IMG/VR virus record: IMGVR_UViG_3300046003_000260
Location: 1-39,658 of that record
Reading direction: 5' to 3' (one strand)
Length of the DNA: 39,658 nt
Source of the DNA: a virus
The position numbers and the translations under genes are program-made. Shown here one piece after another: positions 500 through 23,636 of this stretch. How positions within the stretch are numbered: position 1 is the stretch's first letter; each line of letters opens with the position of its first letter. The notes under the pieces are model-generated. The model made no database searches. It saw only the letters and a list, made by a program, of their open reading frames with translations, and was not told the origin of the DNA.

Positions 500-531
500 T
501 CAACCATTACGAGAGAGAAGGAGAATAGAAC

Positions 532-843
532 ATGGCGAGCCCCTACGCGGGCTCATGGTATGTAGTAGTTCCTAGTAAGGGTAACTATCCTAAGCCGGAT
601 AAGTCGCGAGGTTTGCCAATGGCAGACACGCGAGAGATCAAGGCTAAGGCTAAGGCTAAGGCTAAGCGCAAGGCTACGCCGTCGCTCATAAGTAATGAGC
701 AAGCGATAGCATTACTACGCGAACACGCCAAACGCGAGGAACGCTACGCACATGAGCAAGCACTAGCAGAACGACGCGCACAATTTAGAGAGCAACAACT
801 AGCATGGGAGAAGGAGAACGGCTACACCAATCTATATGTTTAG
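532..843 (+). CDS. Hypothetical basic/coiled-coil protein
   Basis: This is a 103-residue protein that I do not recognise. It contains a lysine-alanine tract at residues 37-48 (KAKAKAKAKRK), encoded by a repeated AAGGCT codon pair. A long charged helix follows, rich in Arg, Glu and Gln, and probably forms a coiled coil. The start is supported by AAGGAG about eight bases upstream and by promoter P2. As first gene after P2 it is probably expressed early. The basic tract suggests nucleic-acid binding, but nothing shows this directly. An internal start at residue 30 is less likely because it lacks the good ribosome site. Confidence 0.7.
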   Translation: MASPYAGSWYVVVPSKGNYPKPDKSRGLPMADTREIKAKAKAKAKRKATPSLISNEQAIALLREHAKREERYAHEQALAERRAQFREQQLAWEKENGYTNLYV

Positions 844-850
844 AGTGGTA

Positions 851-895
851 GTCTGCCCCTAGTGGGGGAATGATGGTGCAATCCCATCAGCAGAC
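851..895 (+). ncRNA. Compact three-way-junction RNA element (riboswitch-like or tRNA-like)
   Basis: A closing stem GTCTGC/GCAGAC (851-856 with 890-895) encloses two hairpins: CCC-TAGT-GGG (857-866), and TGATGG/CCATCA (871-876 with 884-889) with a seven-base loop TGCAATC. The second hairpin abuts the closing stem. The string GGGAA-GGTGCAATCC-AGCAG resembles the conserved core of cobalamin riboswitches. The last hairpin plus closing stem also resembles a tRNA T-arm and acceptor, but there is no room for D and anticodon arms. It lies between a stop codon and the next promoter. The folding is clear; the identity is speculative. Confidence 0.45.
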
Positions 896-900
896 ACGGC

Positions 901-930
901 TTGACATAGTGTTAGGTCATGTGCTAGGAT
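901..930 (+). promoter_or_regulatory. Sigma-70 type promoter P3
   Basis: TTGACA (901-906), an 18-base spacer and TAGGAT (925-930) lie just downstream of the structured element at 851-895 and 28 bases before the ATG at 958. It would drive the string of tiny overlapping genes and the amidoligase/amidotransferase pair. Confidence 0.6.
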
Positions 931-957
931 AATACCTAGACAAGAGAGAGGGAACGC

Positions 958-1107
958 ATGGACAGAGTAGAGAACCTGCTCGCTATTGCAAGAGAGCAGA
1001 TCAAGCAAGCAGAACGCGAGGAGAAGGCGCAAGCCTTCCAAGAGTGGGCAAGATCGGTAAAGTGGCAACCTGCCACCAAGCGCACAAGATTGGTAGGTTT
1101 AGCATGA
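958..1107 (+). CDS. Small charged helical protein
   Basis: This 49-residue reading frame follows promoter P3 and a GAGAGAGGG ribosome site. It is a predicted amphipathic helix rich in Glu, Lys, Arg and Gln. I do not recognise a family. Its stop overlaps the next start as ATGA (1104-1107), the same coupling used by the next genes, which supports it being translated. Confidence 0.6.
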   Translation: MDRVENLLAIAREQIKQAEREEKAQAFQEWARSVKWQPATKRTRLVGLA

Positions 1108-1241
1108 CAGAGTGGGATATAATCGCGGTAATAATCGCGCTAGTAGCAAGCGGAACGCTGAACTTAATAGCCATTAGGCGCAACATAGTATTGGAACGGC
1201 AATTATGGCAAGCAAGGCGTAGGATTGCTGGGCTTGTATGA
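1104..1241 (+). CDS. Small single-span membrane protein
   Basis: A 45-residue protein with one strongly hydrophobic helix at about residues 6-25 (IIAVIIALVAS), followed by a basic tail with several Arg residues. By the positive-inside rule the C terminus should be cytoplasmic. The ATG is chosen because it forms an ATGA overlap with the previous stop; an in-frame start at 1044 would overlap the upstream gene much further. Function unknown; small membrane proteins in early phage regions often modify host envelope or metabolism. Confidence 0.55.
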   Translation: MTEWDIIAVIIALVASGTLNLIAIRRNIVLERQLWQARRRIAGLV

Positions 1242-1339
1242 GTGAGATTGACCCATTGAAGGGCAAGTTTTGGAATTGTCCTGAGTGTGGTAAATTAAAC
1301 TTAGGGGCATGGTGTCCCTGCGAGAGAGAGGGTAAATGA
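1238..1339 (+). CDS. Tiny zinc-ribbon protein
   Basis: A 33-residue protein with CPEC and CPC pairs spaced 12 residues apart, enough for one zinc knuckle. It overlaps both neighbours by ATGA (1238-1241 and 1336-1339). Its function is unknown. The preserved overlaps and paired cysteines are the main support for it being a real gene. Confidence 0.55.
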   Translation: MSEIDPLKGKFWNCPECGKLNLGAWCPCEREGK

Positions 1340-1512
1340 ATCTGGAACTTACCAGAGATGAGAGCGAGATTATTAGAACGGCACTAGCGGAATACGCGAA
1401 CAGCGCAACGCTACGCAACAGATACGAAGGACACGCGATCGAGGTTGAGGATTTGCGTTCTAAGTTAAGTAATGCTATACTGGAATCTATGCTAGCCAAG
1501 ATAGGAGAATAG
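1336..1512 (+). CDS. Hypothetical small helical protein
   Basis: A 58-residue, mostly helical, charged protein of no recognised family. The ATG overlaps the preceding stop by four bases, and the ribosome site GAGAGAGGG lies within the upstream gene. Its stop directly abuts the next ATG at 1513. The C-terminal end (KIGE) is repeated at the end of the next small gene, because both stop in the same sequence, ATAGGAGAATAG, which doubles as ribosome-binding site for the following gene. Confidence 0.55.
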   Translation: MNLELTRDESEIIRTALAEYANSATLRNRYEGHAIEVEDLRSKLSNAILESMLAKIGE

Positions 1513-1617
1513 ATGACAAGTAATACAGCAAGAGAGATTATGAAAGATGTTCCAACGGAAGTTTTAACGGCAGTTAAGTGGTACTTATGGTACAGCAACG
1601 ATAAGATAGGAGAATAG
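1513..1617 (+). CDS. Hypothetical 34-residue protein
   Basis: A tiny reading frame starting directly after the previous stop, with AGGAG six bases upstream. It holds an aromatic stretch (WYLWY) in its C-terminal half. It ends in the same DNA motif as the preceding gene (ATAGGAGAATAG), which serves as the Shine-Dalgarno site of the amidoligase at 1621. Function unknown. Confidence 0.45.
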   Translation: MTSNTAREIMKDVPTEVLTAVKWYLWYSNDKIGE

Positions 1618-1620
1618 AAT

Positions 1621-2889
1621 ATGACAGAGAGTAAAGTGGAAGGGGGTGAGGATATGGAGAACACAATGGTTGAGTGTAATGAGTGTGGCGGTGAGTATGA
1701 CTCAGAGCAAGAAGGTGGCGAGTACAATGATGCGCCTATTTGTGATGAGTGTTCGAGATTCTGCGAACGGTGCGATAGTACCACTAGCAGTAACGATTCG
1801 TATGTAATCAACGGCAACACTATATGGTGTGAGAGTTGCAGAGATAATCACGCGTTCTATTGTAATGAGTGTAATGAGTACTATGATTCCAATTATGTAG
1901 GCTCGCATTACTTTAATGGTAGCGATTACTGCGAGGATTGCATTAACGCAGTTGCTGATTGGTGCGAGTACTGTGATGAGTGGGAAGAGGCAAGAGATCG
2001 GTGTGAGGAATACCGTAGGCGTGAAGGTGGAGAGGGTGCTTCTGTACACCAGTATTCTTACAAGCCTGACCCTATATTCTTAGGCAAGGATAAGCACTCA
2101 CTCTATATGGGTTGGGAGTTGGAAGCAGATACACAATGGCACAATCAAGATGAGGCTTCCGCTTACGCTTCCAATATATTAGAGCAAGAGAATAACCTAG
2201 CCTACTTGAAGCAAGATGGCTCAGTAAGTAGAGGGTTCGAGATAGTAACGCACCCAATAGCACACAATGAATTGCGAGGTGCGAACCTAGACCCCTATTG
2301 GGATACGATAGAGAGGTTGCGTGCTGACTATAACTTTAGATCGTGGGATAGTGAGGCTTCATGTGGGCTACATATACATCTAAGTCGTAAAGGATTTAGT
2401 AATGGGGCACACCTTCACAGGTTCTTACAATTCATATACCGTAACCCTGAGATGATGATGAAGTTCGCAGGTCGCAAGTCTGAGGACTATGCTACCTTCC
2501 AAGATGTATGGAAGTATGATGAGTACGATAGACCGTTCAGATCATACGCTCACAAGTTAGACTATGTACCTAGCAGACCTCACACTTTCAATAGGCGAGG
2601 TTCGACAAGAGGGTCGGCTGTCAATACGAATAACGAACACACAATAGAGTTGAGATTCTTTAGAGGTACGCTCAACAAGAAGGGTATCCTTGCGTGCTTA
2701 GATCTGGCACACGCTGGTGTAGAGTACACTAGGCTACTCAACACAAGAGATGTTGTCGCTGGTATGCTATCGTGGGATATGTTCTACGAGTGGGTATCTG
2801 ATAACAATGGAATCTATCCTGAACTGTACGACCGTATGCCTAAGTGTAGAACGGTGAACATTAAGAATAGAGTAATGATAAATGCTTAA
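1621..2889 (+). CDS. Amidoligase with N-terminal zinc ribbons
   Basis: A 422-residue protein. Residues 19-128 hold a series of Cys pairs (CNEC, CDEC, CERC, CESC, CNEC, CEDC, CEYC), consistent with several zinc ribbons that may bind a target. Residues 160-350 carry the amidoligase signature: GWELE (164-168), DGS followed by GFE (199-207), CGLHIH (248-253) and ELRFFRGT (343-350). The family has a glutamine-synthetase/glutamate-cysteine-ligase type fold and joins carboxyl and amino groups using ATP. The following gene is a class II glutamine amidotransferase, which could supply ammonia or handle the product. This pairing is known from predicted peptide-modification systems. The substrate is unknown. 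AGGAG lies just upstream. Confidence 0.85.
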   Translation: MTESKVEGGEDMENTMVECNECGGEYDSEQEGGEYNDAPICDECSRFCERCDSTTSSNDSYVINGNTIWCESCRDNHAFYCNECNEYYDSNYVGSHYFNGSDYCEDCINAVADWCEYCDEWEEARDRCEEYRRREGGEGASVHQYSYKPDPIFLGKDKHSLYMGWELEADTQWHNQDEASAYASNILEQENNLAYLKQDGSVSRGFEIVTHPIAHNELRGANLDPYWDTIERLRADYNFRSWDSEASCGLHIHLSRKGFSNGAHLHRFLQFIYRNPEMMMKFAGRKSEDYATFQDVWKYDEYDRPFRSYAHKLDYVPSRPHTFNRRGSTRGSAVNTNNEHTIELRFFRGTLNKKGILACLDLAHAGVEYTRLLNTRDVVAGMLSWDMFYEWVSDNNGIYPELYDRMPKCRTVNIKNRVMINA

Positions 2890-2904
2890 AGAGAGAGGGA
2901 GAGT

Positions 2905-3747
2905 ATGTGTTTATTAGTAGTATGTAATCCTAATAGCACACCAGATAGCAAGGACTTGCACGCTGGTGCGTGTAATAATCCGCATGGCTTCGGCTATGCT
3001 GTGATTGCTGGTGATAAGATCATATCCAATAGAGGTATGTCTGCTAAGAAAATTATCAAGGAGTTTTTAGAAGTGAGGGCAAGATACCCTGATAGTTATG
3101 CTATGTGGCACGCTAGATATGCTACGCATGGTGTAAAGAACGAGGTGAATTGCCACCCCTTCAAGGTAGGTGGTAGCGATTTGACATACCTAGCACACAA
3201 TGGTATGCTTGATATAGATATTGAGGTGGGCGATAAGCGTAGCGACACGCGCATTTTTGCTGAGGATACGCTACCTAATATGGGTGGTGTGTCTGCGCTC
3301 AATGACCCTAATGTCATGGATATAATTGGTAAGTGGGCAGGTGGTAGCAAGATATGCGTACTATCAGTAGACCCTACTGCTCAGTATGATATGTATCTGA
3401 TCAACGAGAAGGCAGGTAAGTGGGATGATAGCGGTGTATGGTGGAGTAATCAGAACCATGTACCTAAGACATACCCTACTACCTACTACTCAGCCACTAC
3501 ATACAAGGATTCCGCATGGAAGGATGATTACACAGACGACTATGCGATAGCGGTAGAGCATGATGCGTTACCGATCGACACTCAATGTCCTTGGTGTATG
3601 GGCATAGGTGATATGTTTATTGACCCGTACTACTGTATATACTGTGAGTCATGCTTCGAGTGTGGCACAGATAAAGAAGTATGTATGTGTTGGAATCCTG
3701 ACAAGGCATGGCATGATGAAGTCAATGTAAGATCATATGGCTACTAG
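2905..3747 (+). CDS. Class II glutamine amidotransferase
   Basis: A 280-residue Ntn-type glutaminase. Cys2 follows the initiator Met (MCLLVVC), as needed for the N-terminal nucleophile after Met removal. Further family motifs are NPHGFGYAV, a MWHARYATHG block followed by NCHPF, and LAHNGML. The family releases ammonia from glutamine for a partner synthetase. Here the likely partner is the amidoligase 15 bases upstream. The C-terminal 60 residues add Cys pairs (CPWC, CIYC, CFEC, CMC), a zinc-ribbon tail like that of the partner. Translation starts after a GAGAGGGAGAG ribosome site. A hairpin follows the stop. Confidence 0.88.
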   Translation: MCLLVVCNPNSTPDSKDLHAGACNNPHGFGYAVIAGDKIISNRGMSAKKIIKEFLEVRARYPDSYAMWHARYATHGVKNEVNCHPFKVGGSDLTYLAHNGMLDIDIEVGDKRSDTRIFAEDTLPNMGGVSALNDPNVMDIIGKWAGGSKICVLSVDPTAQYDMYLINEKAGKWDDSGVWWSNQNHVPKTYPTTYYSATTYKDSAWKDDYTDDYAIAVEHDALPIDTQCPWCMGIGDMFIDPYYCIYCESCFECGTDKEVCMCWNPDKAWHDEVNVRSYGY

Positions 3748-3748
3748 A

Positions 3749-3779
3749 ATTAGAGTCCCTCTCTAATACTCCTGAGTAT
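3749..3779 (+). terminator. Alternative hairpins after the amidotransferase gene
   Basis: Two mutually exclusive inverted repeats begin right after the stop codon: ATTAGAG/CTCTAAT (3749-3755 with 3761-3767) and ATACTC/GAGTAT (3766-3771 with 3774-3779). They share two bases, so only one can form fully. There is no T-run, so this may be an mRNA 3'-end or attenuation element and not a classical terminator. Confidence 0.35.
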
Positions 3780-3842
3780 GAGTATAAACTACTCACTAAC
3801 TTTCAGTAAGCAACAATGCCTACTGATTATCGAAAGGACGAT

Positions 3843-4121
3843 ATGAATACTATACAAGAAGTCGCAAGTAACCTACGCTATCTAGCGTCAGAAACTTGCG
3901 ATCATGAGCAAGAACTATTAGAGTTAGCAGAACTCTTAGACCCTACTTATTATGCTAAGGGTACAATTGTTAAGGCTATCAAAGGACAAGATAGATTCAA
4001 GGATACTTCACTATGGATCTCACTAGGTAATGGTAAGTACCAACACCTGACAGGAGAGAAGGGCTTAGTCACTACACACTCACGACTTGACGGATATGTC
4101 AAGCCAGTTTGGATTTCCTAA
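3843..4121 (+). CDS. Hypothetical small protein
   Basis: A 92-residue acidic N-terminal helix followed by a beta-rich half (a run around KGTIVKAIKGQDRF). The family is not recognised. The start at 3843 is chosen for the GAAAGGA ribosome site at about seven bases; an in-frame ATG at 3816 lacks one. It overlaps the next reading frame by 26 bases. Confidence 0.65.
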   Translation: MNTIQEVASNLRYLASETCDHEQELLELAELLDPTYYAKGTIVKAIKGQDRFKDTSLWISLGNGKYQHLTGEKGLVTTHSRLDGYVKPVWIS

Positions 4122-4338
4122 GAACAACGTGATCCCATTCCCTAAGAAAACTTTTGCTCCTATACCTCCACATATTATAGCGTCATTCGCTGTAACCTAT
4201 GACACGTCAGATTTTCCTGACGACATTGATGTTGATACCGCAATAGACATGGTGAGAACGGACTTATCCGACACACATGGCAGTATCACTATAGATGAGT
4301 GGTTCCTTACTGATTCAAGAGGTAAGCCTCTTGGATGA
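4096..4338 (+). CDS. Hypothetical protein
   Basis: An 80-residue protein with an N-terminal proline-rich segment (PFPKKTFAPIPP) and an acidic middle (DFPDDIDVDTAIDMV). No known domain is seen. The ATG at 4096 is favoured over an in-frame TTG at 4087, though neither has a convincing ribosome site. The 26-base overlap with the preceding gene suggests coupled translation. Confidence 0.55.
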   Translation: MSSQFGFPKNNVIPFPKKTFAPIPPHIIASFAVTYDTSDFPDDIDVDTAIDMVRTDLSDTHGSITIDEWFLTDSRGKPLG

Positions 4339-4516
4339 GGAAGCGATCTATAACACTATCATCTATGATGTACGATTTGAATTGAAGCGAGATAAGTATC
4401 AGTATGTGAGTGCCGACAGATTCCATGAGGTACTACATGAAGCACTTACTGATACCGATCTTGGCTACTATGTAGCATACGCTACAATCGTACGAGAAAT
4501 ACCGGATGAAAGATAA
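4331..4516 (+). CDS. Hypothetical small protein
   Basis: Unrecognised protein of about 61 residues. Two starts are possible. TTG at 4331 has AAGAGG nine bases upstream and overlaps the previous stop by eight bases, matching the style of the operon. ATG at 4295 would give 73 residues with a longer overlap and no clear ribosome site. I prefer TTG. The sequence is rich in Tyr, Asp and Glu and predicts as mixed alpha/beta. Confidence 0.5.
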   Translation: MDEEAIYNTIIYDVRFELKRDKYQYVSADRFHEVLHEALTDTDLGYYVAYATIVREIPDER

Positions 4517-4634
4517 ATCAATCTTGGTGGGGTGCGCCCTTGGATTATCGGGGATGATGTTCCTCGGTGGTGCTCCACCAAGTGCGATAGCAATTACGCT
4601 ACCAATTATATACCTGATAGGAGTGATGATATGA
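4506..4634 (+). CDS. Tiny two-segment membrane protein
   Basis: A 42-residue protein made mostly of two hydrophobic stretches (about 6-22 and 26-42) separated by GGAPPS, which suggests a helical hairpin in the membrane. It overlaps the previous gene by eleven bases and ends as ATGA over the WhiB start, so the two are probably translationally coupled. Holin-like or envelope-modifying roles are possible, but no homolog is recognised. Confidence 0.5.
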   Translation: MKDKSILVGCALGLSGMMFLGGAPPSAIAITLPIIYLIGVMI

Positions 4635-4954
4635 TAGGAATATGTACGGACCATCCCGAACCTGACCTATGGTTTTCGGATACTCTAGATCAGGTTGGTG
4701 CTGGTGCACCTAAGAAGGCAGTAGCCAACAAGATGATTGACAATACATTAAGAGCAATCAAAATCTGTGGTAACTGCCCTGTTCAACAGGAGTGTAAGCA
4801 ATTAGGTATGCTACCTGTTAACTTGGAGCACGGTGTATGGGGTGGTACTATGGCAGGTGAGCGATTGCTTCTTGCTAAAGTGCCACTTCATAATACTTCC
4901 CTACGAAATACAGTATCCTTTGCTAATAAAGTAAGGGCATTGGAGGTTAAATGA
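4631..4954 (+). CDS. whiB: WhiB-family iron-sulfur transcriptional regulator
   Basis: A 107-residue protein with the four cluster-binding cysteines of WhiB proteins: C5, then C46-x2-C49-x5-C55, followed by the GVWGG turn at 68-72. Family members bind a 4Fe-4S cluster and act on the principal sigma factor region 4 of actinobacterial RNA polymerase. Phage copies such as WhiB of mycobacteriophage TM4 repress the host gene and exclude superinfection. The start has AGGAG at 4619-4623 seven bases upstream; a GTG at 4532 would add 33 unrelated residues. WhiB is confined to Actinomycetota and their phages, so it is the best host marker here. Confidence 0.9.
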   Translation: MIGICTDHPEPDLWFSDTLDQVGAGAPKKAVANKMIDNTLRAIKICGNCPVQQECKQLGMLPVNLEHGVWGGTMAGERLLLAKVPLHNTSLRNTVSFANKVRALEVK

Positions 4955-5328
4955 AACGCATGTATCTGATACCGCTAGCAACGTTAGCCTTATTGTTAGT
5001 TGCTACCCCTGCCTTAGGGCCTAAGCCTGTTGAACATAAGCAACATGCTTGGACTAAGCAAGATAGCCTAGCCTATGCTAATGACCGACTAGTAGTGTGG
5101 GCAAGCAAGCAAATGACCTGCCTAAGCAGGCTATGGGGTAAGGAATCTGCGTGGAATCCTAAGGCTAAGAACAAACACAGTACTGCCTTTGGTATACCAC
5201 AGATGTTGAAGTTAGATAACTCCCTATCGGCAGCACAACAAATAGATAGAGGATTGTCCTATATCTACTATCGCTACGACACACCATGCAACGCATGGAA
5301 ACACTGGCAAAGAAAGAAGTGGTACTAA
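4951..5328 (+). CDS. Exported lysozyme-like transglycosylase
   Basis: A 125-residue protein. Residues 1-23 form a signal peptide (MKRM, then hydrophobic core, ATPALG). The mature part resembles the small lysozyme-like domain of actinobacterial lytic transglycosylases: KESAWNP with the probable catalytic Glu at 65, GIPQM at 81-85, and a C-terminal helix with YIYYRYDTPCNAW. C57 and C118 may form a disulfide. It cleaves peptidoglycan outside the membrane. The ATG overlaps the WhiB stop (ATGA). Its place among early accessory genes, far from the endolysin, suggests cell-wall remodelling or a separate export-driven lysin. Confidence 0.8.
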   Translation: MKRMYLIPLATLALLLVATPALGPKPVEHKQHAWTKQDSLAYANDRLVVWASKQMTCLSRLWGKESAWNPKAKNKHSTAFGIPQMLKLDNSLSAAQQIDRGLSYIYYRYDTPCNAWKHWQRKKWY

Positions 5329-5567
5329 TGGGTGATGAAATAAGTATACATCAGTTACGACCCACTGACTATGAGAACGCTATGGATATACGTGGTACTG
5401 CTACCACTGTATGTCCATGTGGCTGTGATGTATGGCGTGTCTTAGTTAAGTGGGATGAGGAAGAGAAGGCAGTAGGTATGTACTTCTTAGATATGGAGTG
5501 CGCTCAATGTGGCACTCTTGCTACTGCGCCGACACCAGATGAGGACGATACTGATGCCGACCTATGA
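5328..5567 (+). CDS. Zinc-ribbon protein
   Basis: A 79-residue protein with CPCGCD and CAQC cysteine groups about 30 residues apart, a typical zinc-ribbon fold, and an acidic C-terminal tail. The chosen ATG overlaps the upstream stop (TAATG). An upstream in-frame ATG at 5286 would lie inside the lysozyme-like gene. Similar small ribbon proteins are common in actinophage accessory regions; their targets are unknown. Confidence 0.65.
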   Translation: MGDEISIHQLRPTDYENAMDIRGTATTVCPCGCDVWRVLVKWDEEEKAVGMYFLDMECAQCGTLATAPTPDEDDTDADL

Positions 5568-5724
5568 ATATAAATGTGCAAGTTGTTTCACTACTGTTGA
5601 ACAAGAACGTAGCCTACATAGTGAGGCTATCGCCCCCACTTGTTGCGGTGGTAGCATGATTAGACAATGGAATAGTACCGCTGTACACTTTAAGGGTACC
5701 GGATTCTATAAGACAGGTGGATAA
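5554..5724 (+). CDS. FmdB-like zinc-ribbon protein
   Basis: A 56-residue protein that begins PTYEYKCASC and continues with CCGG, ending in a basic, aromatic stretch (HFKGTGFYKTGG). This is the pattern of the FmdB zinc-ribbon family, small putative regulators found in bacteria and many phages. The ATG at 5554 overlaps the preceding gene by 14 bases. The stop overlaps the next start. Confidence 0.8.
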   Translation: MPTYEYKCASCFTTVEQERSLHSEAIAPTCCGGSMIRQWNSTAVHFKGTGFYKTGG

Positions 5725-5891
5725 TGGAACTATATAATCTCACACCAGACGAGAAAGAATTATTTAAGAAGGATCACCCTAACATGACCGAGGGTGAGTA
5801 CTTCGATCAGGAGTTTGGTGAATTGCTATGGTCTGATCCGGCGGAGTTAGATTCTTCTCCTTCTACCGGCTCAGAATCATCATCACGATAG
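5724..5891 (+). CDS. Hypothetical acidic protein, convergent overlap
   Basis: A 55-residue acidic protein with a Ser/Glu-rich tail. Its ATG overlaps the previous stop (TAATG). The last 85 bases (5807-5891) overlap the 3' end of the minus-strand sigma-like gene, tail to tail, in antisense. Both tails are low-complexity Ser/Asp/Glu/Pro sequence, as expected when one DNA stretch codes on both strands. Function unknown. Confidence 0.5.
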   Translation: MELYNLTPDEKELFKKDHPNMTEGEYFDQEFGELLWSDPAELDSSPSTGSESSSR

Positions 5892-6490
5892 GGTTTGAAC
5901 CCACCTATCTTGTTGATGATGCGCTTGATGGCACGCTTGTGTCGCATACGTGCGGCATCTGCGCTGCCTATCTCCATAGCGGTAGCGATCTCATCAAAGT
6001 CCATTGACTCAGCGTATCGGTAGAACAATAAGCGTCGATCGTCCTTGCTTAGATGCCAGTATGCTGAGTCAACCTCTACTAACATAGCCATAAGATTACC
6101 ACCCTCTGATGGGGCAGACGGACGACCCGGACGACCAAGATTTAATACCTGAGTGATGTTCATCTCTCCTCGTATGACGGCAGGAAGTAATGCTTCCACC
6201 ATATCAGCCTCGTAAAAGAATAAGTCTGATGTTTCATACCCACTTAACTTTGCTTTCCACTTCTGACAATAGTCTAACGCTTGATTGCGTAAGGATTTAT
6301 AGATAAGATTCTTAGCATCTTTCTCGCCTATCGCTTCCCATTCATCTAACTTATTTGGGTGCTCAACGAACCATTGGTACAACGACTGATGTATATCATC
6401 ATACTCTACTATCTCATACTTCCTATGATAGTCAGAGGCGACAGCCTTTACTATGTAATCCCAAGGTTCAATGCGCGACCACTCTATCAT
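5807..6490 (-). CDS. Sigma-70-like RNA polymerase factor
   Basis: A 227-residue protein. The C-terminal half has a region-4-like helix-turn-helix: LSKDDRRLLFYRYAESMDF, DEIATAMEI, and a basic recognition helix with RMRHKRAIKRI. The N-terminal half is helical and could be a diverged region 2 (YDDIHQSLYQWF). It probably redirects host polymerase to phage promoters or is a related regulator. The start at 6490 is chosen because it overlaps the upstream stop by one base and has AAGGA nine bases before it; an earlier ATG at 6508 is possible. The C-terminal 28 residues are acidic and overlap the convergent gene. Confidence 0.65.
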   Translation of the reverse strand: MIEWSRIEPWDYIVKAVASDYHRKYEIVEYDDIHQSLYQWFVEHPNKLDEWEAIGEKDAKNLIYKSLRNQALDYCQKWKAKLSGYETSDLFFYEADMVEALLPAVIRGEMNITQVLNLGRPGRPSAPSEGGNLMAMLVEVDSAYWHLSKDDRRLLFYRYAESMDFDEIATAMEIGSADAARMRHKRAIKRIINKIGGFKPYRDDDSEPVEGEESNSAGSDHSNSPNS

Positions 6491-7805: not shown

Positions 7806-8170
7806 TACTTACCCCATTGTCCTCTCAGGACTAGCAATCCTATGATTGCATAGTTAGCCATGTCCTTGAATGAATCCTCAAGGGGCTCGAAGTTTGGTTC
7901 ATTACTATGTAGGTTATTAATCCTTGCTAACTTATCGTGCATTCGCACACGCAATCCATTGATCGCACCACCGGGTGCATCCATAATATTCTTAGTGCCA
8001 TAGTCTTGGTGCTTACGCAACAACAACTCTTCTAACTCTTGGAATGTTTCGTTGACTACAGTTTCGAATTCAGCAACGGGATCGTTATCGTTATCGTCAG
8101 AGTATCTTCGCTCCGTCCAACCTTCGTCAAGTTGAGCCCGTAACCTCTCAACCACTCTAATATTTGCCAT
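7805..8170 (-). CDS. DUF1599-like nucleotide-modification-associated protein
   Basis: A 121-residue helical protein whose second half matches the DUF1599 pattern: KHQDYGTKNI, then RMHDKLARINNL and EDSFKDMANYAIIG. This family (also called nucleotide modification-associated domain 1) is linked to the all-alpha MazG-type NTP pyrophosphohydrolases and occurs in phage nucleotide metabolism. GAGGAAGT before the ATG is a good ribosome site. Enzyme activity is inferred from the family only. Confidence 0.75.
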   Translation of the reverse strand: MANIRVVERLRAQLDEGWTERRYSDDNDNDPVAEFETVVNETFQELEELLLRKHQDYGTKNIMDAPGGAINGLRVRMHDKLARINNLHSNEPNFEPLEDSFKDMANYAIIGLLVLRGQWGK

Positions 8171-9729: not shown

Positions 9730-10206
9730 TTATTTCAATTCTGTGATAGGTACACGCCATCCACCAATAGATTGATCTACCCATTCATCTCGTCTGCATT
9801 CATCTGCAAAGAAATGACCGTAGATTTCTACCTGTGAATAGTATTCTGTATCTAATACCATACATCCATACACACACTTGCCTGCATCTTTACCCCAGAA
9901 GGGGATACCATTAGCCGTACGTATAGTACGCACCTCTATAGCATGACCAACATCAGGTAGATGAGCACGTTGCGAATGCAATTCATTCGGATACCAAGGC
10001 ATACTCCACACTAAATTCTTAGCCTTGGCAACTGCCCACTCAGCCACGTTAGCACGTATGCTAGCGGTAAGTTCGTGCTCTAGTCTACCATTAGCCTTAC
10101 CTTGTGCATAGTTTGGTCTGTCAACACTACCAAACTTCATAAGCCAACGCTCTGTTGCAAGCATGGTACATACTCTTACTTCTTCTTTACTCAGTTCTAC
10201 TATCAT
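9730..10206 (-). CDS. Hypothetical protein, possible PD-(D/E)XK nuclease
   Basis: A 158-residue protein. Residues 44-60 form a helix with E56, and residues 83-93 read LPDVGHAIEVR, which fits a PD...E-x-R variant of the restriction-like core. The C-terminal part is aromatic and ends GWRVPITEL. Such proteins occur among phage replication genes, but I cannot name a family. Its ATG overlaps the upstream ATPase stop (ATGA) and the next gene is a clearer nuclease. Confidence 0.6.
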   Translation of the reverse strand: MIVELSKEEVRVCTMLATERWLMKFGSVDRPNYAQGKANGRLEHELTASIRANVAEWAVAKAKNLVWSMPWYPNELHSQRAHLPDVGHAIEVRTIRTANGIPFWGKDAGKCVYGCMVLDTEYYSQVEIYGHFFADECRRDEWVDQSIGGWRVPITELK

Positions 10207-10985
10207 GAATTCTCCGGTATGTCTTCAACGAACATGTACTCAGGATTGAATGCAACCCAAGTCATAAGATTAGCATGAGCATCTGCTCTGCCATATCTAT
10301 TCTTTACAGGTGCTATAGCCATTGAAGTACCGACAACACCTAGGGTACAGATTAATGCTGGCAACTGGGATACTTTACCTTGAATCGCTGAGCGTGGCTG
10401 GCATGGTCTACCTTCTACCGCCTCAGAAGTATGATGTAATACAATTACTGCTGCGTTAGTAGCACGGGCTAGGTACTTTAACTCTTTCATAATAGCACGC
10501 ATTGAAGCGAACTCTTCGCCACCATCAGTGGCTACGTCCATTAAGTTATCTACTATGATACATACTGGGGGACAACCCCACAACTCTTCGAATGCTTGGA
10601 CTTCCTCATCTATATCCTGCAATGTAGGACTAGATTCGAATGACCATACTACGTGACTACTCTTAGATAGTGTAGCCTTAGTCCACCCAATATCATTTTT
10701 TAACATCTGCTCTACATCACCTTGGCTTTTGCCAGAGATCATAGAGGCTAAACGCATAGCCATAGTATGAGCATTGGTATCTGCTGATATGTACAGCGTA
10801 GGTACCTTCATCTTTAATGCTAGCGCAAGTGCGAGCGTGGACTTTCCTGCTCCGGGCGCTCCTGCAAACATCGAAACTTCGGCACGCCGAATAATGATTT
10901 GGTTATTCTCAAACGCTTTGAACGGCGACGGGAGTGGTTCGCCACCGAGCGACGCACGACCAACTGATCTGACAAGCGTACGCAT
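10203..10985 (-). CDS. DnaB/RecA-like replicative ATPase (helicase core)
   Basis: A 260-residue P-loop ATPase. Walker A is GAPGAGKST (42-50), Walker B CIIVDNLMD (142-150), a sensor-like VLHHTSEA follows (182-189), and PVKNRYGR (227-233) carries the likely arginine finger and KNR motif of DnaB C-terminal domains. The usual DnaB N-terminal domain is missing, so it is a minimal helicase or a RecA-like recombinase. It lies between the Fe-S nuclease and the primase, a normal replisome setting. AGAAAGG provides the ribosome site. Confidence 0.8.
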   Translation of the reverse strand: MRTLVRSVGRASLGGEPLPSPFKAFENNQIIIRRAEVSMFAGAPGAGKSTLALALALKMKVPTLYISADTNAHTMAMRLASMISGKSQGDVEQMLKNDIGWTKATLSKSSHVVWSFESSPTLQDIDEEVQAFEELWGCPPVCIIVDNLMDVATDGGEEFASMRAIMKELKYLARATNAAVIVLHHTSEAVEGRPCQPRSAIQGKVSQLPALICTLGVVGTSMAIAPVKNRYGRADAHANLMTWVAFNPEYMFVEDIPENS

Positions 10986-22887: not shown

Positions 22888-23622
22888 TCACTTCTTTCTA
22901 TGATGTTTTGGTAATATAAGACCTGATGATTTTTCTGCTGCTTTCTCTGGTGCGCCAAAGAAGGCGTTGTAATAATGCTCATCAAATGAAAATCTCTTCA
23001 TATGTGGAGCCAATGCTGCGGTGTGGCAATGAAGCGGGATTCCTACCTTATCGCATAAAGCGAAGAAGTAGATGTCTTCTCCAATAAATTTAGTTCCTCT
23101 ACCCATCTCCATAAAGAGTTGAGTATCAGGTAGTTCGGTGCGTATGCGTTCTACTACACTGCGATGCATTAGTATGTACCCCATACCTGCTGCATCTGCT
23201 TTGATTAATTGATTCTTTGGTAGAGGATGGACTCTAGTTAAACCAAAGCCACCTGAACCATCATCAACAAATTTAAATACTGTAGGCATAGGAATCATTA
23301 ATGGTTCTTCTGGGTTGTCCGTTGTGAAGTATACACCAGTGACCATAGGGCGTTCTTTAGCATCTCTATTATCCCAAAGCAACTTAAATGTTTCAGGGCT
23401 AATAACTACATCTGAATCTACCCACAGTAACCATTCATGCTCTGTCTTATCAAACCAGTAGTCTATAACTGTTTGACGCTGACGAGCAATTTGATTACCT
23501 TGACTTCGCAAAGTACTAGCAAAGGTTACTCCAGACTTAAGCATAACATCTGTAACACCTTGCATAAACTTGCCATCTACCATACCATTATCGCACCAGG
23601 CGATTGCTACTGTTTCTTGCAT
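22888..23622 (-). CDS. Glycosyltransferase, GT-A/GT2-like
   Basis: A 244-residue protein with the GT-A features: an N-terminal strand with CDNG, LLWVDSDVV holding the metal-binding DxD (about 69-77), GMGYILMHRSVV, and KFIGEDIYF, a usual catalytic ED pair. It transfers a sugar from a nucleotide donor. The place inside the virion block, between basic proteins and the connector, suggests glycosylation of phage structural proteins, or of host surface sugar. ATG at 23622 has AAGGTGGGG upstream; a GTG at 23631 is less likely. C-terminal tail is basic (KHHRKK). Confidence 0.75.
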   Translation of the reverse strand: MQETVAIAWCDNGMVDGKFMQGVTDVMLKSGVTFASTLRSQGNQIARQRQTVIDYWFDKTEHEWLLWVDSDVVISPETFKLLWDNRDAKERPMVTGVYFTTDNPEEPLMIPMPTVFKFVDDGSGGFGLTRVHPLPKNQLIKADAAGMGYILMHRSVVERIRTELPDTQLFMEMGRGTKFIGEDIYFFALCDKVGIPLHCHTAALAPHMKRFSFDEHYYNAFFGAPEKAAEKSSGLILPKHHRKK

Positions 23623-23636
23623 TGTCCCCACCTTAG

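Follow-up and report, generated by a model that had tools for sequence, protein, structure and literature searches.

What might an amidoligase and a glutamine amidotransferase (GATase), encoded side by side and each extended by additional cysteines, do together in a phage? We addressed this question in the window, i.e. the whole stretch of DNA analysed, an IMG/VR virus record of 39,658 bases. The pair is part of a short operon of early type on the + strand (approximately 530 to 5,900), the replication and structural genes being on the opposite, - strand. The features are listed in Table 1.

Table 1. Features of the amidoligase–GATase pair and of the gene that follows it (positions in the window)
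Feature	Position	Strand	Basis
Amidoligase_2 (glutamine-synthetase-fold carboxylate-amine ligase), 422 aa	1621..2889	+	Pfam, fold, invariant residues; start possibly 1654
N-terminal LIM-like zinc-finger array of the amidoligase, residues 19-128	1675..2004	+	Foldseek, Pfam LIM in relatives, spacing
Catalytic amidoligase core: GxELE, KxDGSxxxGFEIVTHP, CGLHIHxS and HTIELRFFRG motifs	2104..2709	+	
C-terminal dipeptide Asn-Ala-COOH of the amidoligase; [N/D/E/Q]-A in relatives	2881..2886	+	Conservation
Class II (Ntn, N-terminal Cys) GATase, 280 aa	2905..3747	+	Pfam, PHROG, invariant residues, Foldseek (GlmS/GFAT/EgtC)
C-terminal cysteine-rich ribbon of the GATase, residues 228-263	3586..3693	+	Conservation, spacing; no confident model
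Protein of ~90-100 aa, candidate third member after the GATase	3816..4121	+	Position and shared history in freshwater relatives

Two enzymes with intact catalytic residues

Both reading frames are open over the coordinates of Table 1, and dN/dS is approximately 0.1–0.2 for the amidoligase and the GATase alike, a sign of purifying selection, so that the conservation of cysteines and motifs described below is not due to chance. The preliminary description had recognized an amidoligase with all its core motifs followed by an Ntn-type amidotransferase, and both identifications hold. The amidoligase matches Amidoligase_2 (PF12224) above the Pfam cut-off (6.3e-8, 33.2 bits for a cut-off of 22), its catalytic motifs are all present, and the same profile is matched by 44/44 amidoligase relatives at E <= 0.1. 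Residues G164, E166, E168, D199, S201, G205, E207, P212, G249, H251, H253, R285, R330, N335, T341, E343, R345 and F347 are unchanged in all 47 relatives compared, and include the residues of the glutamine-synthetase-like site (E166, E168, D199, E207, H251, H253, R330, E343 and R345). The relatives start at the equivalent of Met12 of the window protein, and the true start may therefore be 1654, preceded by GGGGGTGAGG. The AlphaFold model of the 422 residues (mean pLDDT 87, pTM 0.67) retrieved YbdK (3e-4), gamma-glutamylmethylamide synthetase, PafA, Dop and glutamine synthetases with Foldseek, with TM-scores that are low over the whole chain for these catalytic matches. As modelled, the fold is of the glutamine synthetase/PafA/YbdK class, the catalytic domain having it in common with PafA/Dop, YbdK, gamma-glutamylmethylamide synthetase and glutamine synthetase at ~8–14% identity. 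To our knowledge, none of these enzymes has a counterpart of the LIM-like arm of the window amidoligase.

The GATase scores below the curated cut-off of Pfam GATase_6 (5.5e-5, 23.6 versus 27), a profile that matches 46 of 47 GATase relatives (best 2.7e-8), and it matches phrog_25883 at 6e-35. It starts with Met-Cys and carries the HxRxATHG, HNG and SDT motifs; M1-C2, N25, G28, G30, H69, R71, T74, G76, N82, H84, P85, H98, N99, G100 and D114 show no variation among 47 relatives, so that neither enzyme has a mutated catalytic site in this set. When distinct loci are counted, M-C is found at the N terminus in 86/87 and V-C, with a GTG start, in the last one. The Ntn core is well modelled, with the glutaminase domain of GlmS/GFAT as best Foldseek match and EgtC next. 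In the alignment R71, T74, N99 and G100 correspond to R73, T76, N98 and G99 of GlmS, and the main glutamine-binding and hydrolysing residues of GlmS have equivalents. Judged by its sequence, this protein is a class II glutamine amidotransferase, with a predicted glutaminase activity. Production of a fused protein by stop-codon read-through was considered and rejected: the two genes are in frame in the window, but the frame is lost in many relatives.

Cysteine-rich regions and the amidoligase tail

The extra cysteines reported earlier at the N terminus of the amidoligase and the C terminus of the GATase are real and conserved across relatives, but they are not of matching types as had been claimed, LIM-like double fingers being found in the amidoligase and, in most relatives, a Cx2C-x12-Cx2Cx2Cx2C-x6-CxC ribbon in the GATase. 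In the amidoligase, C19, C22, C41, C44, C48, C51, C70, C73, C81, C84, C104, C107, C115, C118 and C128 are kept in at least 90% of relatives, and 82/85 have the double-finger pattern, most commonly spaced C-x2-C-x(17-20)-C-x2-C-x3-C-x2-C-x(18-28)-C-x2-C. With Foldseek the arm resembles the LIM domains of FHL1, FHL2, LMO2 and LMO4 (E ~1e-2 to 1e-1; prob 0.97 and E 0.014 for 2cup). The likeness to the LIM proteins FHL1, LMO2 and LMO4 lies in the fold and in the C-x2-C-x18-C-x2-C-x3-C-x2-C-x18-C-x2-C spacing; in contrast with a LIM domain, the third ligand of the window arm is Cys instead of His and the linker has three residues instead of two. Pfam LIM (PF00412) is matched by 3/44 amidoligase relatives (best 3e-5) and not by the window protein. 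We therefore speak of a LIM-like arm and not of a LIM domain. The arm is present also in the pairs of a Lokiarchaeota bin and of Clostridia.

At the other end of the amidoligase, Ala is the last residue in 29/30 representatives (<80% identity), and the penultimate residue is Asn, Asp, Glu or Gln in all 30. All four codons are used for the terminal Ala, whereas positions -3 to -8 are free to vary. In the AlphaFold monomer model the tail has little order, which suggests that it contacts another molecule. The C-terminal tail of GlmS-like enzymes closes the active site, and the amidoligase tail may be analogous. This [N/D/E/Q]-Ala ending is limited to the freshwater clade. An open-literature search, whose coverage did not extend to the original 2009 paper, returned no paper naming both amidoligase and LIM domain, so the LIM-like arrays and the conserved tail may be unreported so far.

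In the GATase ribbon C228, C231, C247, C250 and C262 are conserved, and the complete pattern is found in 75/83 relatives. The ribbon is absent from the GATases of MEP401, ctgrD200 and locus L111, the amidoligases of which still have cysteine fingers, so that the proposal of matching ribbons through which the two enzymes dock is not supported. Structure prediction of the complex lends no support to it either: the AlphaFold model of the fused proteins (pTM 0.42), based on the in-frame read-through of 22 loci as co-inherited pairs, showed neither a confident interface nor an ammonia tunnel, and left the GATase ribbon unordered. The test is weak, as the linker offers little length and is attached to the GATase at its catalytic N terminus. 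An alignment mixing unpaired rows told nothing about the complex.

Linkage, spread and relation to known modules

The GATase gene lies directly behind the amidoligase gene in 107/110 amidoligase loci. Of the other three, one ends at a contig edge and two, which have room and had appeared to hold an amidoligase only, have a divergent GATase, so that separate loss of a partner was not seen. In IMG/VR the analysis covered the best 80 of 427 amidoligase relatives; a single-sequence amidoligase search of IMG/VR and a GATase-profile search gave no matches. Using the neighbouring Toprim gene as bait, both genes were found in 18/18 IMG/VR contigs whose flank on the side of the pair measures 8.2 kb or more, and one alone in none. 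In the freshwater set the genes are -1 to +15 bases apart. Amidoligase and GATase distances correlate at 0.91, compared with 0.57–0.82 for amidoligase distances versus the WhiB, SLT, ribbon and sigma genes of the region.

Besides freshwater actinophages, Mycobacterium phage Marvin and OM43 phages, the pair is found on mycobacterial plasmids, in Clostridia and in a Lokiarchaeota bin. It is nevertheless an accessory module, as the cultured Planktophila phages E7 and F5 keep the operon without it. No amidoligase was found in the complete record of F5 (LanE43AprF5, OX376641; PMC10202952), which has WhiB, SLT-like, ribbon and FmdB genes in the order seen in pair-bearing phages, and the phage search returned no match from E7 (OX376640). 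Upstream of the WhiB–FmdB genes of F5, where the pair would be, there are a nuclease-like gene and small ORFs. This accessory-gene slot of the early operon is at 9835-10272, and the nuclease-like protein appears SNase-like by eye. From the kinship of the window virus with the WhiB-encoding phage family that infects 'Ca. Nanopelagicales', we infer that its host belongs to the freshwater actinobacteria.

Amidoligase–GATase pairs are already known from Marvin and MEP401/402, and the pair of the window is a further one, from a large freshwater clade. It was earlier described as a pair of the kind foreseen by comparative genomics, and it does match the type of Iyer et al. (2009), as far as this is cited in PMC10580990. 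Marvin gp105/gp106 (Marvinvirus) and the mycobacterial plasmid pairs consist of adjacent co-directional amidoligase and class II GATase genes (29–35% and 32–38% identity), and share with the window the finger cysteines at the N terminus of the ligase and the ribbon at the C terminus of the GATase. In Marvin the finger region is shorter, the ligase is extended at its C terminus and lacks the [N/D/E/Q]-A tail, the genes are separated by a 79-base gap, and the neighbours are different. The plasmids, of 144–156 kb, are NZ_CP065286, NZ_CP015269 and NZ_CP025548; finger cysteines are present in the two examined. In the Methylophilales phages MEP401 and MEP402 (MEP401 gp05/gp06; PMC10580990), the amidoligase (PF12224) likewise adjoins a GATase (PF13522), but its long N-terminal extension is of another kind with few cysteines, the GATase ribbon is lacking and the host is different. 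The peptidoglycan modification cassette of phiEco32, LUZ24/PaP3, RIO-1 and PSA-HP1, as related in PMC5498523 and PMC3890496 (Iyer 2009; Hardies 2013), includes Amidoligase_2 and class II GATase_6, as in the window, and in addition an ATP-grasp, a second COOH-NH2 ligase and a GGCT, none of which was found with Pfam or PHROGs among the ~30 larger ORFs of the window. Peptidoglycan modification by the cassette is itself put forward as a hypothesis (PMC10580990, PMC5498523, PMC11945000). An apparently complete module of this cell-wall type is seen in the soil Stenotrophomonas phage StenR_269 (GGCT, GATase, GS-like ligase, ATP-grasp, amidoligase and a second GATase); here the amidoligase lacks the LIM-like arm.

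Proposed reaction, alternatives and neighbouring genes

Phage amidoligase–GATase pairs have been noted since 2009, and the open literature consulted gives no experimental function for them. The explanation that we favour, and hold as a whole to be somewhat probable, is that the pair forms a two-subunit glutamine-dependent amidating enzyme, with an envelope peptide as the likeliest target of this early operon. Cys2 of the GATase would split glutamine to release ammonia, and the amidoligase would use ATP to convert a carboxylate to an acyl phosphate and then, with the transferred ammonia, to an amide. The LIM-like array would pick the protein or peptide target, and the [N/D/E/Q]-Ala tail would shut the active site, or touch the GATase or the substrate. 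The early-type accessory operon, together with relatives in the proposed phage cell-wall cassette, makes a host envelope peptide (the peptidoglycan stem) the likeliest target, its amidation leading to superinfection exclusion or lysis; a cell-wall role of such pairs, as an aid to either, has been proposed (PMC10580990, PMC5498523, PMC11945000). Taken on its own, the cell-wall target is a guess, and a doubtful one: the pair of the Lokiarchaeota bin counts against it, since peptidoglycan is not expected in archaea, unless the contig comes from a virus or was put in the wrong bin.

Class II GATase folds serve also as gamma-glutamyl hydrolases (EgtC), which counts against amidation. The two proteins might instead act as EgtA and EgtC do in ergothioneine synthesis: the amidoligase would couple a carboxylate, glutamate or another, to an amine that is not ammonia, and the Ntn enzyme, rather than supplying ammonia, would cut a gamma-glutamyl amide at a later step. 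This would suit the matches obtained with Foldseek, EgtC for the GATase and YbdK and gamma-glutamylmethylamide synthetase for the ligase, as well as the gamma-glutamyl cyclotransferases of the StenR_269 and LUZ24-like cassettes. We consider this reading unlikely, because the GATase is closer to GlmS/GFAT than to EgtC, its glutamine-binding motifs are complete (although the pocket is common to EgtC), and such a scheme does not need tight coupling, yet adjacency is near-obligate. The PafA and Dop fold matches, the protein substrates suggested by the LIM-like arm, the exposed conserved tail and the actinobacterial host would all suit a Pup-like system, in which the amidoligase would couple lysines to a small protein or to its own C-terminal tail after the GATase has readied the carboxylate. 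However, no Pup-like gene or C-terminal GGE/GGQ substrate was found, the sole candidate tag being the -TGG end of an FmdB-like protein that phages lacking the pair also keep, and a class II GATase acting as a deamidase would be unusual, which makes tagging very improbable. Amidation of a modified DNA base is hardly credible: an NMAD1-like protein (PF07659 at 7808-8170, just under the cut-off) and a glycosyltransferase (phrog_34859, 22891-23631) are encoded in the genome, but F5 has both genes (72% and 46% identity) without the pair.

A rather unlikely version of the amidating enzyme would modify proteins, the LIM-like arm recruiting a specific host or phage protein, the [N/D/E/Q]-Ala tail being a substrate mimic or gate, and the co-inherited 90-aa protein a third component or the target. 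This ~90-100-aa protein follows the GATase in 73/79 relatives and is unmatched in the phage collection. Amidoligase distances correlate with its own at r 0.90 (0.91 for the GATase), to which proximity alone could contribute. Other small proteins take its place in some deeper relatives, so the third gene is optional; its co-inheritance is possibly a new feature.

The LIM-like arm and the conserved tail offer new handles for finding the target of the amidating pair. With many naturally diverged pairs, an ordered domain plan, a very short tail, a linked third gene and the module-free cultured phages E7 and F5, the function is directly testable in this family. If phages do use amidation when infecting acI actinobacteria, which are among the commonest freshwater bacteria, this would bear on superinfection and lysis.

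Among the neighbouring genes, that of an FmdB-like 56-aa zinc ribbon protein (5554-5724), tried as the source of a pair-specific substrate, was rejected, the C-terminal GFY[SK]TGG of the protein being near-invariant in related phages whether the pair is present or not, cultured E7 and F5 included. Upstream of it, a secreted-looking SLT-like (lytic transglycosylase-like) protein of 125 aa (4951-5328), present in 71/79 relatives and in F5, is a possible cell-wall enzyme. A putative zinc-ribbon peptide of 33 aa (MSEIDPLKGKFWNCPECGKLNLGAWCPCEREGK, 1238-1339) is encoded just 5' of the pair, and a basic 103-aa protein with an (AK)n repeat (KAKAKAKAKRKA) at 532-843.
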